DNA from: Polytrichum commune
Taxonomy: Eukaryota > Streptophyta > Polytrichopsida > Polytrichales > Polytrichaceae
Assembly: GCA_950295325.1 (NCBI GenBank)
Contig: OX485803.1
Span: 21,638,001-21,702,000 of the forward strand
Direction of reading: 5' to 3'
Length of the DNA: 64,000 bases
A model generated the notes under the pieces. It saw only the letters and a list, made by a program, of their open reading frames with translations. It did no database searches and was not told where the DNA came from. Numbering within the stretch: the stretch's first letter is position 1; each line of letters opens with the position of its first letter. The translations under genes were made by a program, and so were the position numbers. This document shows, piece by piece, positions 8,500-17,104 of this stretch.

Positions 8500-8720
8500 T
8501 CCCATTGCACTTCTTTTGACTACCCTGATCTACAGTCACTAAACCACTGCAGATTTTTGTTTTTTGTTTTGCAACTGCATTTTGTAAGCATATTGGGATG
8601 TGTAATATACCGTTGGAAAGGTATTTTCAAGACCTTTCCAAAGGTATATTACAAGCCCAGAAATTCCAAACATTGCATTTGGTAGACCAAAAAAACAAAT
8701 CTGCACTTGAATTCTTGAGT
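8500..8720. mobile_element. CCGCAGCC-family fold-back MITE, degraded copy
   Basis: TTTTGACTACCCTGATCTAC at 8513 and the middle part (TGTAATATACCGTTGGAAAG and its inverted match TTTCCAAAGGTATATTAC) resemble the full copy at 38639-38912. Both outermost ends are eroded. Confidence 0.65.
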
Positions 8721-8767
8721 TCTAGATGTCCCGCATTGTTTGGTGAAACAAGTGTGAGCCGGTTTAA

Positions 8768-8784
8768 CCCCTAACTGCCCGAGC
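8768..8784 (+). repeat. piggyBac left terminal inverted repeat
   Basis: CCCCTAACTGCCCGAGC follows TTAA directly. Just inside lie CGACCATATATGGTCG (8784-8799, a perfect 16-base palindrome), CCAAAAATTTTGG and a GGGCAGTT inverted match to AACTGCCC, so the left end can fold into stacked hairpins. Confidence 0.88.
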
Positions 8785-11300
8785 GACCATATATGGTCGA
8801 CCAAAAATTTTGGCTCGTTTGTGTGTGGGCAGTTAAATTCCTTTGACCGCGAAATTTTTTTTGGCGGGCAGTTCGAAAGGGCAACTTTTGGATTGAGGCA
8901 TTTTTTACCAAAAAGATTAAATATTTGATTTTAGAGAGGGTCGCAAAGGCATATATGTCCTACTAGTAGAAAAGGGCAGCATTGGAGAACCAATGAGAAT
9001 TTCCCATCCATTGAGCGGTCAAGTAAAAAAAACATTGTGGGGGCAATGGGTTTGGCTCTTGGTAAAGTGGAAAGTAATGGGCCCTTGATTGGAGAAATGG
9101 CGCTTCGTTTGGCGCGGTAAATCATGAATTTGTAACCAATGAGATCACTCCATGCTTGCAACCTCCTAAATGAAAAAAAAATGCACTATAGCCACTGTGG
9201 CAAGGGGTGGCGGGAACCTCATCACTTCCAACCGCCTCTATTGCTTTCACAACATGAAGACATGAAAATGGCGGTGCTCACAACGGATTGAAATGAGAAA
9301 AAATGGAAAAAATTATACCAACACAACGTTGCAAAGTGGTTCAACTAACAAATCAGTAAGGAATTTCATAAAAAACACCAACATTATGCAAGATAACGGT
9401 TAGTGATGGGTTGAATGCAAAAAACGTGTATATATGTTTGAACCATTCAAATTCCAATTCACAGGTCTTCATTGTCATACAAATTTGTCACAATGGACGA
9501 CATTCCAAACCCTCCTATCTCTCTTTGCTACATCGGAGGACCAGTAGACATAGTTCGAAATTGTGTAAGGTTGCAAGGTGCAAGTGTACAACAAGAGAGA
9601 GTTATTCTAGCAGCATTGGATTCAAACTATCTTGCAAAGTTGCCCAAGCCAAAGAAGTGGCGAGAGATCGGCACTATACCAAGGAATAGAGCGTTTAGAT
9701 CTAGGTACTATCAACAAGTAGCTCACATTTTAGGGTGGAAGGAGAGACATGTGCATGGATTTTCGGAGGCCGTGAGAGACACCTTGAGGAAAGAGGTGTG
9801 GCCAGACCATGGAGAGGAACAAAGAGACATGGCAACAGATAATTCTCAAGGCATTGGAGAGAAGAGGAGCCCACACATTGGGGCTTCAATGGAGCGATCT
9901 GCAATTGCCAAGGGAGGTGAATCTAAGTCGGAAGGCGCCCAAGTTAGCAGTAAGGAGGTGCACATCAAAGATAACAACGACCACACAAGTCACATACACA
10001 AAAGGATGGTCAGAGGGAAGGAAGCGAGCGGGGGAAAGATTGAGGATTGTTGCGAAGAAGGGGAGCATCATGACGGCGGACAAGGCATCTGCACCAAGAA
10101 ACGATCAAGACCCGAAGAGGAAGGCAACGGAAGTAGTGGATTTGCAACCAAGTCCAAAGGGACAACGGGACGTGTACTCCCAAAGTGGTTTGAAAGTTTT
10201 TAGATTTACAGAGTTTGTAGTACAAGACCATGAAGTAGCAGTGAGAGTTCCAAGGTATGTTGTGAGTGAGTTAGCACAATTGGGAGATGAAGAACAAGAT
10301 TTAGAGTGGATATTAGGCGTGGTGCAAAGGAGCTACATTGAAGAGCAATCAAATGCTAGAATGTATGATGTTTTATTTACTGGTGGAATTAGAAAATGTA
10401 TTCCAAGTGGATTCATGGAGCAAATATTGAGGCATGAAAAAAATGCAATACAACCCACAAACAATGTTGAGCCAACATCTAATATTTCCAGTGACGACGA
10501 GTTGGAAGATGAGGATGGGAGTAGAGATGGAGATGACAGTTGGCCGGTAACATATGAAGATGACCTTCATGACCAAGCAGCCGAATGGGAAGCTTGGGCA
10601 CAATCGCTTGAGGCGGCCAACACGAAAGCAGATGGTCAACAAGGAATTGGATCTACAGCTGGTGTCGAGGATGTCCGAACAACAGGGAGGGTGCGGGCAG
10701 TGGCACATGCGAAAGGAGTGCAGCAGGTCAGTAGTGAGATCTTTCATTAAGATATTTATAAGTCTATCAAAGTGGTCGATTTGAATCTTTCTTTATCAGT
10801 CGCAAAAAATTGCCTAGACCTCTGATCCGTCTGTGAAAACAGAGAAGATTGAGGCATTGTATCCAACAATACAGTAATACACTATATGATGCATAGATGC
10901 CACTCTGAGAACAGACATAAGATACGAGTTCAAGTGCACACCTGCAAACTCAGCACACCTGCACCTGAAAACTCAGCCACAATGAAATCTATAAGAAGTG
11001 GATCACTGATGTGATGTTACAAGCAATTCATACATGCAAAGACCGGCCAGTGTTTGGTCGTTCAATTTCTCTGACTACTAGGCAATGTCCAGAACTCTGA
11101 AGATGAGTTAAACGAGTGAGAGGATACAATTGGACTGCGGAGCACTTCGGAGACCTGATCTCTAATCGCGATCTGTCTCTGTTCCGAAACAGATAGCAAT
11201 TTTAGAGAAAAGACCGCATGAATCGAACATACATAGATGCCACTCTAAGAACAGACATAGTGATTGACATCAACTTGCAGGAAGAATTGAAATCGCGAAG

Positions 11301-11390
11301 TCTCACATGAATCAAACACTGACCCAGTCTCACATGAAATTAAACACCGACCTAGTCTCACATGAATCAAACACCGACCCATTCTCAAAT
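11301..11390 (+). repeat. Short tandem repeat, 27-28 bp period
   Basis: Units start with TCTCACATGAA at 11301, 11328 and 11356, with a partial fourth at 11383; each contains AAACACYGACC. It lies in the presumed intron of the piggyBac transposase. CATAGATGCCACTCT with AGAACAGACATA also occurs twice nearby (10894 and 11232). Confidence 0.8.
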
Positions 11391-11730
11391 TTCTTTTATT
11401 GCACCAACTCGAAGAAGCTATCACTTACATTGGCAGATGTATTGAATTGCAGAAAACAAAAGCAGGTAGAGAGGAGTGAGACAGAAACTTACTTGCTCAT
11501 GTCGACAATGCTGGGGTTGCGAGGCGGATGGGCGAAGAAGAACAGGTGTTCCTACATTTAGGCGCTTGGGAGGAGATTTCGAAGTGTCGGAGCGCAGTGC
11601 CGCTCGGCAGCACAGCGTGTGGCCAGCAGAGCAGGCGCCCTGGCACGAAGCAGCGAGGAGCGCAGGCAACGGCTGCTGGTAAGCTTTGTTTTTTTTGTTT
11701 TTTGTTTGTTTATTTAGCCACTGAGAAGTC

Positions 11731-11943
11731 ATCCGGAAGATTTTTGGGGATAACCGGTTCAGATCCTAGTGTTTGCAAGTCCAACCTGTTACATGATCAC
11801 ATCCTCCGGTTTTCCTTTATTAAATTGGGGTACATTCTATAAATTTCCTCCAAGATGATAGTAATTTTTCTGCTAAATAGAACTTCAACCGGTTATTTCT
11901 AGAACTCAACCAGTTCATATGTAAATACCTGCCGGTTCTCCCC
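11731..11943 (-). repeat. ACCGGTT dispersed repeat, copy 1
   Basis: In reverse complement this begins GGGGAGAACCGGC and contains AACTGGTTGAGTT, AATAACCGGTTGAAGTTC and ATCTGAACCGGTTATCC. It lies inside the piggyBac element, so it either inserted there later or was carried along. Confidence 0.85.
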
Positions 11944-13139
11944 GATCATTGCATGTGAGAGGGCAGTGAGTAGGAGGACCAAATTGTGCATTTCTTTGTT
12001 ATTTTTTTTTCCAAATAAAGAGCTCTTTGGTTATCCTAAAATCATATGCTTATCATAGGGTATGTTTTTGTGGTGCTGGCAGCATGTGAAGTTGTGGGTA
12101 GAATGGAGAAGGGGCAGCTAAAATTACCAGGGATTAAAGAAATTTACAATGATGATTCGTGGCAAAAGACATTCTCCACTTTTGATCCTGCACCTGTTGC
12201 ATTTAGCGGTCCGATGCCGGGTTTGCCATACCCTTTGACCATAATGCCCACTTTATATGCATTATTCCATAAATTTTGGATTCCTCGGACTTTACGTAAG
12301 ATATGTGTGGAGACTAATAGATATGCTTCAGAGATAAACCCACGGTCCAAGTGCAACCCCAAAAAATTACGGGGTAGAGAAACGTGGTTTGCATTACATC
12401 CACCGGAGTTGAGGGCATTTTTTGCTATTTCTTTATACATGGGGATCAAAATTAAACCAAATGTGCGATGTTATTGGAAGAAATCGTGTGACTTTTTATG
12501 GTGCCCAGTTATATCTTCTATTATGACACGGAACCATTATGAGCACATTATACGATATTTACATGTGCATAATGACCATGGAGCAACCATGGACTGAACA
12601 AATGTTGAATTTGACAAGTTGGTGAAATTGAGGTGGCTATTAGATGAGATTAGGGATCGGTGCAAGAATATGTGGAATTTGGAGGACAAGGTGACCATAG
12701 ACGAAATGATGATACAATACAAGGATAAGTATTGTGGCATTCGTCAATACATGCCAAAAAAAACCAACTAAATGGGACATCAAAGTTTGGTGCCTTACGG
12801 ATTCAGAAGCGAGGTATGTGTGGACGTTTGAGGTTTATTATGGAGCTAACAAGGGGGTTCCCGGGATTAAAGGTTCCAAAAGGGGTGAGGCTAAGCGATG
12901 TGCAAATATGGTACATGGATTATTACGTGGGTTGGAAAATAGGGGCCATATAGTGGTTATGGACAAAAAAATTTCCTCTGTGTCTTTATTTATGGATCTT
13001 TTGGATAAAGACACTTATGCAACGGGTACGGTTAGGGCCGATCGCATTGGCCTCCCAACGACATTGGCCAAAAAATCACTCTATACAAAATACACTCGAG
13101 GGCATTTGGAATGGAGAATGCATAAATCCAAACAACTTA

Positions 13140-14116
13140 TGCCCCCTCCCCACCTGACTTTGGGGAGGCCGGTTTTAAGCTAAGACTCTCTTTTCATTAC
13201 CGGGCTTCTCCACCTGCTGGGGTATTAGGGGCCGAGCTGAGCTGGCAAACTCGCTAAGACCCCCTAATACTGCCGAGCCTGGGGTTGTAGTCCCGGAGCT
13301 TGCTTCCTCCGCTAAAACTGCGGAGGAATTATAGCATCGGTAACTCACACAAGCTTCGACATCCCATTGGCCACCGTGGGGTATTAGCTATTCAGCCTTA
13401 AGAAGCCATAATACCGGTAATGTTGCTACAGATGGGAGGGTTCCACTCCCCGAATCCGGCGAAGGCGTGTCTGCTGCAACGGATTTTTTTTTGTTTTACC
13501 GAAATAGCCGGCAGTGGTTGAAACGGCTTGCCGAAATAGCTGCAGTATCTGTAATTGCTCTTGTTTTGCCGAAACAATGATCGGGGAGAATCGGCACAAA
13601 TGAACCGGTTGAATTTGAGAAATTTCTGAGCTTAGCAAAGTTACATAGAATCGACCACATGGCAATCAGAACAAGTGACAATCGAGTCAAGAAGTTCGTC
13701 CCTGGTGTAGTAGAAATTTGATGTTGAGGAGGTGTAGATAAAACCTGAGGATGCTCACAACTTTGTGTCACTCGGCGGTAAAAAAAATGCCGGTAAAAAA
13801 ACTTCTATTTCTCAAGGCACATGATTTCCGGCCGAAGTGGACACTGCAGGAAAATCACCGAGCCGTTACAGACCTTCTACTGTGCAAAGCGCCTGCATAG
13901 TTAAGAAGGTTGCTTACACAACCCAATAGCACTCACCCTCCTCGGTGATTTAGCAACAAGTCAAGCAGGTTGGTAAGCAAAGGGCCCCGGGTATTAGGCC
14001 CTCATCTGTCTCCACCGCCAAACCCCATCTTAGACACTAGCACCCTAGCACCGGAAATTTAGGTGGGTTTTAGCACTAAAACCCACTCTTAGCTAATGTC
14101 AAGTGGGGAGGGGGCT
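13140..14116. mobile_element. Nested non-autonomous element with TTA duplication
   Basis: The ends are inverted: GCCCCCTCCCCACCTGAC at 13141 against GCCCCCTCCCCACTTGAC read inward from 14115. TTA flanks both sides (13137-13139 and 14117-14119). Removing the 977 bp and one TTA joins the transposase in frame, giving KQLSVIVWVDKKP, exactly what a piggyBac protein should show there. The 3-bp TWA target and G/C-rich ends suggest PIF/Harbinger. There is no coding capacity I recognise inside. Confidence 0.85.
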
Positions 14117-15627
14117 TTAGCGTCATAGTGTGGGTTGACAAAAAACCGGTTTTTGTTATGTCTACGGTGGCACCACCAATCCATGGGGTCGGTGAAGAGT
14201 GTCCAGTTGTTCAACGGCGAATGAGATATCTGCGAAAGGCGGTTGAGACATCTCCCATGCACTTCCAATATACCACGTACATGCGAGGGGTGGATGTCAT
14301 TGACCAACTTAGGGGCGAATATTCTTGCCAAGTTCGCACTCACAAGTGGTGGCATAGGCTTTTTTTTCCTCTTGGGCACCATGGTGGTGAACATGTGGAA
14401 ACTTCACTCTAAACAGTCTTTGATTCTAGGAACCAAAACCTTGAGTCAAAAATCTTTTCAACTCCATTTGGCAAAGGTTTTAGCATCACACCACCTTCGA
14501 TCTCGCAAGTACACTTCTCGTTTCAATCGCCACGAAACACTTTTATACATGCCCATGTGGAGCCACCTTCGCAAAGTATGTTGTGAGTGTCATATACGGT
14601 GCCAAACATATTACCCATGTTGCCTTGGACACCACATGCACATTGGAGAGTGTTGGAAGGCGATTCACCGTTCAATTTTTAATTGAAGGTAATATTTTTC
14701 ACATGCAAAAGTTAGAAGGATTTATAGTTATATATAATATTGTAGGGATTATAGGGTTTTTTGGGGGTTTAGAGGAATAGTGATCCTTTTTGGGGATTCT
14801 CCAATTGGAAAACGTCATACTAAAAAAAAAATTTGAAGAAGTTATGGCCTTTTGACTTATGTGGTTTTTTTTGGCAGCATCCTCCATGGCGGGGCCGGGA
14901 GGGGCGGGGTCACTTTTAGAATACCTATGCACTTCCATTAGTGGATAGGGACACTTAGGTGGCAATTAGGTGGTAAGTTGGAGAAGGTACCTTGTAAGTG
15001 GAGTGGGGTCGCACCCGTGATGTAGGGAATGGGTGGAGAAAGTGCTTTACCATTTCCCCAATGTTTTAGCTAATTGGACTATTGTACTTGTTTTTGACAT
15101 CCAAAGAGTTCCCATTATTCATTTTTTTTTAAAATGTCGTAGTGAAAAAAGTAAAAAAATTCTGTATTTTTGACCGTCGAATACTAGTATTCACAAATAC
15201 CAATGTGAAGTAATTTGCAATATGAAATCGTCAAGTGTTACAATGAAGAAAATGCATTTCAAGAATTGCAAGGAGGATTGCAAAATGATTGGGATAGCTC
15301 TATATGCATACATAGGGTCTTTGGAATCACATTTTCGCATTCTTTTACATGTTGGAGTTGTTCGTGTCACCTCAAACTCCTAAAAAACTTATGAGCAAAT
15401 CATACCAACATTGTGGGGAGGGGCGGCATACAAAAAAAAATGTATACATTTCTCTTGTTTAAATCTCACAACTCTTATGCAATCTCGGTCTCAAAATTGG
15501 TATGCATACTAATAAACAAGTTCTTTAAACATCTATACGGTTAGATTTTGGATAAAAGACAAATTCCTCCATTTGGGATTGTATTAAAGCCATGCACATA
15601 TTTCTTAGGAAAAGTGCACTCCGAAAG

Positions 15628-15644
15628 GCTTGGGCACTTAGGGG
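15628..15644 (-). repeat. piggyBac right terminal inverted repeat
   Basis: Read on the minus strand from 15644 the sequence is CCCCTAAGTGCCCAAGC, followed outward on the plus strand by TTAA. It differs from the left end at two of 17 positions. Confidence 0.88.
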
Positions 15645-15648
15645 TTAA

Positions 15649-17104
15649 GGGGTAGGGCAAGGTAGTGCTGGTATGTCTCATGGGCTATGGTATAATTAAA
15701 GCGCTTAAAAGGTAGATTCGTTAAAAATTTATTGAAATGGTATTTCTCTGACATGGGCCCTTGCCTCTCTCACCGCAAAACCCGTTGGACCATGTCAGTG
15801 CATTTATTAGGCCTTAGAAATCATATTTTAGGGACCTCGACCTCCATGGTCCCTCTGCCATTTTTTCCTCACTTAAACCGAAGTTGTCCCGGGTGAACTT
15901 CAATAGCCAATCAGCTGCCTTGCAAAGCCCTGGTCCAACTTCATGGTCCATAGTGTCAACCGCCCCTAAGTTGCTTGTGCTGATACAAGAATGAGTAAGT
16001 GGCCGGAGGTAGTCTAAAAGGCCAAGCACAACTCCAGCAACATCAACCGTGCCACTCTCGACTTGGATGCACGCGACTTGTTTAAATAAGTGCGCCAATG
16101 GATGGTGGACTAGGACTATAAAAGTTGCGTGAGATCGGCACTCTCTGTGGATGCCATCCACTTGCGACACCTAAGTGGCACAAGGATTTGGGCACGAAAA
16201 GCAGAGGTTAATGTAACATGAAGGGGGTTAGAGCTGCACGGCGATTGTACTCGGCTGTGGAAAATCGCCTGCCTTTGTCCGCTGCAATTAGGGAGAAGTG
16301 CTTAGTGAATTGACTGGGAGTTGGAGGGTGCGACGGGAAGAGTAGCACGTTTCCGACACCTCTGTGCTTTTGCTGAAGCCAGTAGGGTAAGTGCGCCATT
16401 GACCGAACGCGGCCCAAGGACCGCACAACCACCGCACAACCACCGCACAGTTTTCAATCCTGAGAACTCTCGCGGGAACTTCGGGAACGTTGAGGGAATT
16501 TCGGAGAGAACGTGAATGTACAGGTACCGCACACTGTGCGGTGAACGGCTCACTAAGCTCTTGAGATCCACCTGTGTATGTTTGGATCAATTTGTGATAG
16601 CTTTCACAAATCAAAATATCTTTCATTTTTATTTTTTTGTAAGAGAATCCTCACTTCACAATTAACAATCCTTCAAATTTTGAAACAATTTAAGCTTGTA
16701 AATTTGTACTTACAAGGATTTGAAGATTGATCGTGCGGTCATTGGCGCACTTACCTTACGCGTGCCATTGAAACTGCACAACCGCAAAGATACAAACTTA
16801 AAAATCAAGTTGTCACCGGAATTGGCATTAAGGCGAGGAACGGAGGAAGTGGTGTTTCACTCTGGGGACTGTGGACCTTTGAATTGTTGCAAGGGATTTC
16901 GTCAACTGGCTGCAATCTTCTTCGGTTGGGCACCAGCGTCACCGTACGGCTAGGGGGATTATGGGGGTGGCGACTTGGGAGTTGGGGTGAATCCACGGGG
17001 AAGTGAAGGTTGAACCTGGAGGGTTAGGGTAATTAGAGTTACGTGTGAAAGCAATTTAATGGCTTCATTGTGTATGGTGATCAAGCATTTGTTTCGGGGG
17101 GTGC
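15649..17104. other. Non-coding region right of piggyBac
   Basis: Positions 15649-15966 are the right part of the outer element. Beyond that, 16200-17040 is GC-richer than its surroundings and has CCACCGCACAA repeated in tandem at 16430-16450. No gene is supported. Confidence 0.5.
16526..16542. repeat. Perfect 17-base palindrome
   Basis: ACCGCACACTGTGCGGT has 8-base arms around a central C. The arm ACCGCACA also occurs in the short tandem run at about 16429-16450. Confidence 0.8.

Follow-up and report, generated by a model that had tools for sequence, protein, structure and literature searches.

A piggyBac transposon inserted in a repeat of the host genome

In a 64,000-nucleotide stretch of contig OX485803.1 (positions 21,638,001 to 21,702,000; hereafter the window), we identified a piggyBac transposon at positions 8764..15648 on the plus strand. 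The element, 6885 bp including both copies of TTAA, was delimited by its ends, inverted-repeat pairing, comparison with related copies and uninterrupted sites. An original prediction made from the letters of the window had placed the transposon at 8768-15644, locating it correctly but leaving out both TTAA sequences. These target duplications, which the prediction had described on either side, were confirmed at 8764..8767 and 15645..15648. The terminal inverted repeats, 17 bp each, lie at 8768..8784 (plus strand) and 15628..15644 (minus strand). The left terminus reads CCCCTAACTGCCCGAGC and the right one, reverse-complemented, CCCCTAAGTGCCCAAGC; as predicted, 15 of the 17 bases are identical, and with TTAA counted in, inverted-repeat pairing gave 21 nt with 90% identity. 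The termini CCCCTAAC.../...CTTAGGGG have the CC...GG form that PMC10045372, in the part available, gives as characteristic of the inverted ends of the piggyBac superfamily. A search of the genome for the 17-bp end TTAACCCCTAACTGCCC, allowing up to two mismatches, returned 1123 sites (554 + 569), as against 31 (16 + 15) for the same pattern written backwards. The ends of the window element are therefore not due to chance, and other copies sharing them, for which the prediction had proposed a search, are present in the genome.

The flanks of the element, 8674-8763 and 15649-15738, are parts of a high-copy host repeat. When they were joined with one TTAA (184 bp) and searched against the genome, all 40 places scored among 871 candidates were uninterrupted, with 97-98% identity over 182-184 bases, and such copies occur on the large contigs C1, C2, C3, C5, C6 and C7. 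Two of them were inspected base by base and contained a single TTAA and no gap, indicating that the element landed in one copy of this repeat. The uninterrupted copies demonstrate insertion, not excision. For L002, a related element described below, the joined flanks gave partial matches across the junction (82-89%) in 38 of the 40 places scored among 1546 candidates; the other two are L002's own flanks, and the one place that was aligned carries TTAA where the flanks meet. To the eye, L002 and L013, members of different families, have similar flanks, as if the same kind of repeat had been hit.

Decay of the transposase in the window copy

The transposase is present as four pieces on the plus strand, recognized by frame translation and alignment with related copies. 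Piece 1 (12040..12597) corresponds to PF13843 positions 3-94 and ends at a stop; piece 2 (12713..13183), in a different frame, corresponds to positions 142-260, and piece 3 (14080..14412) to positions 264-338. PF13843 was matched by these three of the four frames scanned (E 2.3e-16, 2.1e-23 and 3.4e-6). Piece 4 (14225..14686) ends in a Cys/His stretch at about 14579-14683, and its frame gave no Pfam match at E 0.1. The predicted transposase was thus borne out by PF13843, while its C-terminal Cys/His domain was called by eye; the pattern is visible in the window copy and in the families described below, and one Pfam match in L009 fell below its cut-off. Sub-cut-off matches in the window frames to GEMIN8 (E 0.028), WXG100_2 (E 0.00077) and DUF2269 (E 0.0053) were not used. 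All four motifs named in the prediction, TIDEMM, VVMDKK, GVDVIDQ and HKWWHR, were located in the window translations.

Alignment with piggyBat and T. ni piggyBac chains and with related copies placed the three catalytic Asp codons (DDD) at 12700..12702 (TIDE), 12962..12964 and 14293..14295 (GVDVIDQ), all on the plus strand. All three are kept, the block around the second being altered (MDKK; MDNF in L002). The DDD blocks of L002 align with those of T. ni piggyBac (6x67) and piggyBat (9c0f), and we presume that the three positions have the same catalytic roles.

Compared with the open transposase exon of L002, the window copy has one in-frame stop, two frame changes and one insertion. The insertion is a 977-bp inverted-repeat element (13140..14116) bordered by TTA at 13137-13139 and 14117-14119. 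In L001, L002, L003 and L007 this site lacks the insertion and has one TTA; L008, whose anchor matched elsewhere, was left out of this comparison. The nested element gave 51 DNA matches in the genome, itself included, the rest being partial with identities down to 67%. PIF/Harbinger elements produce a 3-bp TTA/TWA target duplication, and on the basis of its target duplication only, the nested element may be PIF/Harbinger-like. Given the stop, the two frame changes and the nested element, the window copy is dead and no longer able to make a transposase. This decay, the nested element and the upstream N-terminal domain described below had escaped the original prediction. The idea that it would be a useful representative does not hold for this copy; its relatives L001-L005 keep an open transposase exon of 564 residues.

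Related families and recent movement

The genome contains at least 118 matches to PF13843 (best E 9e-79). A part of these was sorted into five families, A, C, D, E and F. Family A comprises L001-L005 (E 1e-78 for the open exon of L002), and the window lineage (the window copy, L007 and L008) stands beside it. Family C (L012-L014) has ends TTAACCCCTAAACGTGC and close variants, and family D (L009-L011 and others) has ends TTAACCCTTAAAAGAGG. Family E is exemplified by L045, an element of 5744 bp with ends TTAACCCCTAAAGGACCG, in which all 14 bases past TTAA are identical between the two ends. Family F consists of L070 and L071, both with stops, with N-terminal domains at L052 and L058.

Two pairs of family A elements, L002/L004 (99.95%) and L003/L005 (99.85%), are nearly identical over about 6 kb. 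As the four copies lie on four contigs with differing flanks, we concluded that the family has moved recently. In family E, the identity among L029, L038 and L041 is 99.1-99.7% across some 1.25 kb. L001 (C1:11753320-11759703) is a mosaic, with 96.7% identity to the window copy over the first 2278 bp and 99% identity to family A over the last 2.9 kb; L006, judged by its frames only, may be another. Two piggyBac loci on C6 (30061720-30064990 and 30483065-30486335), 421 kb apart with equal spacing and equal transposase scores, are possibly a segmental duplication.

The window lineage is also related to an 833-bp miniature inverted-repeat transposable element (MITE; L015-L017), whose ends match those of the lineage with 95% identity over 637 bp and 91% over 198 bp. 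No transposase was found in the 833-bp element. All 40 copies scored, among 103 candidates, were full length and 97-100% identical.

An N-terminal domain encoded upstream of the transposase

Upstream of the transposase pieces, an open frame at 9442-10203 on the plus strand contains a domain of about 108 residues (9493..9816) that matched neither Pfam nor PDB and is probably encoded by exon 1. It is followed by a probable middle region (9788..10750, plus strand), an open frame in +1 register to that of the N-terminal domain, with one sub-cut-off Pfam match. A search with the 115-residue L002 domain found 38 places in the genome at E <= 0.001. Pairing these with 51 of the 118 transposase places, and allowing up to 26 kb, we found a PF13843 match downstream on the same strand for 35 of the 38 (median 3.7 kb, 34 within 10 kb). 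One of the three unpaired domains sits in a family D derivative that has both ends. The family E domain was not among the 38 but was found by a second comparison, being 36% identical to that of family C. All five families thus have an upstream domain of about 100 residues, and when 12 sequences drawn from A, C, D, E and F were aligned, seven columns proved invariant. None of the 12 matched a Pfam family at E 10, nor did the profile match a PDB chain at E 10. Narrow patterns run against viral and prokaryotic contig collections gave no relative confirmed by tblastn, a result that says little. Single-sequence AlphaFold2 models of the window N-terminal and middle proteins (mean pLDDT, the predicted local distance difference test score, 43 and 49) were too poor for use in fold comparison. 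A Tudor/agenet-like domain in the middle region, suspected by eye, was dropped; nine members gave no Pfam match, and PDB profile matches were weak and unrelated (best E 0.083).

Concerning the way in which the N-terminal domain is joined to the transposase, the evidence comes from family D. A donor-like site, chosen in each copy as the first suitable one 80 nt or more beyond the domain, was present in 14 of 14 copies at 97-109 nt past it and always in phase 1 (13 GT, one GC). Before the large exon, the three copies examined by eye all had an acceptor-like CATAG, TGCAG or CACAG followed by GTGG, in matching phase. By extension from these splice-like sites, the N-terminal domain is probably exon 1 of the transposase in the window family as well. 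The frame that follows that of the domain is shifted to +1 register in families A, C and E. Codon-position divergence tracks the first frame up to about position 1050; the second frame is mostly tracked from about 1200 in family A, and in family C the switch comes no earlier than about 1430-1725, varying with the pair compared.

Persistence of family D

Among 15 family D domains, 10 are open, three have one stop and two are split across two frames. Nearest pairs differ by a synonymous divergence (dS) of 0.22-0.79, with a ratio of nonsynonymous to synonymous divergence (dN/dS) of 0.056-0.097. Genome-wide, the 17-bp end of the family, with up to two mismatches, occurs 291 times as against 207 times in the reversed control (26 sites are perfect). 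As this is not far above the control, the case for D as a transposon rests on the pairing of ends around its transposases. Of the 15 transposase places, 13 are enclosed, together with an N-terminal domain, by a pair of inverted 17-bp ends that lie 7.5-33 kb from each other and have no more than one mismatch each. In addition, C6:37908946-37912869 is a 3.9-kb derivative that has kept both ends; the 1301 bp of it that were compared show 100% identity to an element 3.7 Mb away, apparently its parent, so that D must have moved recently. The copies at C7:41450456-41462023 and C6:41604265-41616174 are examples that are mostly open, mutually old and bounded by paired inverted ends. That the sampled D copies are mutually old and mostly intact despite recent movement is a puzzle.

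Host genome

The assembly of 407.8 Mb consists of 64 contigs; C1-C7 each measure 42-78 Mb. Contig C8, on which psaA, psaB and matK were found, is regarded as the plastid genome. The best PDB scores of PsaB were obtained with 8htu (1705 bits), 6l35 (1702) and 7ksq (1701), followed by 9lut (1667) and 7wfd (1630), and those of PsaA with 8htu (1724) and 6l35/7ksq (1704), followed by 9lut (1698) and 7wfd (1651). We take 8htu, 6l35 and 7ksq to be from Physcomitrium patens. By this comparison the host is a land plant, in line with the plant-like genome proposed initially, and would be a bryophyte, most likely a moss, rather than a flowering plant. Partial matches to plastid families were also seen on the large contigs, for MatK_N at C1:44839401, C2:70037132, C3:48930998 and C5:20289380 and for PsaA_PsaB at C4:47707642 and C5:337267; several contain stops, and they are probably plastid DNA in the nucleus.

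Alternative explanations

Two alternatives concern where the elements come from. That the contig is a contaminant from an animal or fungus, named in the original prediction as an outcome that would overturn it, is hardly conceivable. We found no evidence in its favour, PF13843 matches are spread over all of C1-C7, the repeat into which the element inserted is found intact on several of the large contigs, and the same assembly includes C8 with its plastid genes. The other is a recent acquisition by horizontal transfer, with an animal or fungus as the source; piggyBac is best known from animals, and very young copies (99.85-99.95%) are present. On the other hand, at least five families share one N-terminal domain, and in the catalytic region their identity is 37.5-50.1% between families (eight pairs computed) and 22.6-28.2% with T. 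ni piggyBac or piggyBat. In a maximum-likelihood tree of 20 sequences, the two animal fragments were split from all others with an ultrafast bootstrap of 99 (0.993 in FastTree); as its only outside sequences are these two from animals, fungi and other plants being unrepresented, it is a weak test. We regard recent transfer as very unlikely, and the lateral entry suggested at the outset is not supported as a recent event; the common N-terminal domain and the depth of divergence lead us to favour a long residence.

Two further alternatives to a resident transposon with a spliced transposase gene concern the genes themselves. The N-terminal domain might be produced as a protein of its own alongside the transposase, in the manner of ORF1 (open reading frame 1) in PIF/Harbinger elements, or its frame might be joined to the next by programmed +1 frameshifting. 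In A, C and E the frames overlap with a +1 shift; this, together with an ATG seen by eye in the second frame just past the domain in several copies, would fit such arrangements. The donor-like site of family D, however, keeps its phase in every copy although its distance varies, and the acceptor-like sites match that phase; we therefore judge splicing the better explanation and these arrangements rather improbable. As for family D, the open domains, the dS of nearest pairs and the low dN/dS would also fit a domesticated gene family that is no longer a transposon. We had at first suspected this, as no 3' inverted end was seen near the ORF and dN/dS was low, but dropped it when a genome-wide search with the 5' end paired ends around 13 of the 15 transposase places. 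With those paired ends and the identical derivative, domestication of D appears unlikely.

Overall interpretation

Taking these results together, we consider it highly probable that the window element is one of a set of piggyBac cut-and-paste transposons established in the nuclear genome of its host, a bryophyte and most likely a moss, with a transposase gene that is probably spliced. It is a genuine plant-resident piggyBac, although the window copy itself is a poor representative. Several points weigh against this interpretation. The host assignment depends on the organisms to which we attribute the PDB entries. The phase-1 donors of family D were picked as the first fitting site at a set minimum distance, and L044 and L054 are identical among the 14. 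In family A, two windows (1275-1499) do not favour the downstream frame, and any splice sites of A, C and E, where a +1 shift separates the middle frame from that of the domain, would be putative.

If the elements follow established piggyBac biochemistry, the DDD transposase would bind the CCCCTAA... ends, excise the element through hairpin intermediates and insert it at TTAA with duplication of the target, excision restoring TTAA (the TTAA mechanism is given in the part of PMC7351741 available). The gene would probably be spliced from exon 1, encoding the N-terminal domain of about 100 residues, through the middle region to a last exon encoding the DDD domain and the Cys/His tail. The window lineage would have given its ends to the 833-bp MITE, which is probably moved in trans by the transposase of intact relatives.

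A broader proposal, possible in our view but doubtful, is that these elements represent a plant-resident piggyBac clade, still mobile and with at least five families in the moss, in which a conserved phase-1 intron links a previously undescribed N-terminal domain to the transposase and the domain acts as a plant-specific module for DNA binding or targeting, family D persisting as a dozen mutually old, mostly intact copies with conserved ends. If so, the persistence of D may reflect an unusual mode, for instance tight control of copy number, or selection acting on the transposase itself. The family offers a case for asking how an old transposon family stays intact. The moss system likewise provides a way to ask how the additional N-terminal domain contributes to the binding of ends or to targeting.

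Comparison with known piggyBac systems

piggyBac is a standard genome-engineering tool, and moss families with both ends, some with 99.9% identical copies, are a source of candidate plant-adapted transposases. In the literature searched, the natural history of piggyBac in plants is thin, consisting of general statements and repeat-library counts. In the portions of these sources available, a fern repeat table lists 1230 PiggyBac entries covering 122 kb (PMC6890710), a grass genome has one PiggyBac match of 75 bp (PMC8319324), and a paper on bees mentions plants among the hosts of piggyBac (PMC10140906). For the fern, the grass and the angiosperm review cited next, the portions available describe no element complete with its ends, a transposase and an uninterrupted site. 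The initial view that piggyBac is rare or absent in flowering plants may not hold as regards absence, since a review, as far as available, counts PiggyBac among the MITE superfamilies of angiosperms (PMC10004981); the host here would in any case be a moss. No piggyBac element in a moss appeared in the titles or abstract openings of the open-licence papers that our searches listed, and in the available part of a moss genome paper, the relevant word was "piggybacking" (PMC10619864). Among piggyBac MITEs, the 833-bp element is ordinary apart from its host.

Concerning elements known in structural detail, piggyBat (9c0f) was the best PDB match (E 4.5e-24) and has the same catalytic blocks; it differs in that catalytic-region identity is 23-28% and that the moss N-terminal domain profile has no match to 9c0f at E 10. 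T. ni piggyBac (6x67, 6x68) shares with the moss elements the TTAA target and the DDD blocks, and, as far as the moss pattern can be judged by eye, a C-terminus rich in Cys and His; phmmer matched it to the family A transposase at E 6.5e-22. Its catalytic-region identity is 23-27% and the moss elements have the added N-terminal domain. According to the part of PMC10140906 available, the T. ni element is 2472 bp long with one ORF. The moss elements are longer, those of A, C and E being 5.6-6.9 kb (measured without large inserts) and those of D at least 7.5 kb.

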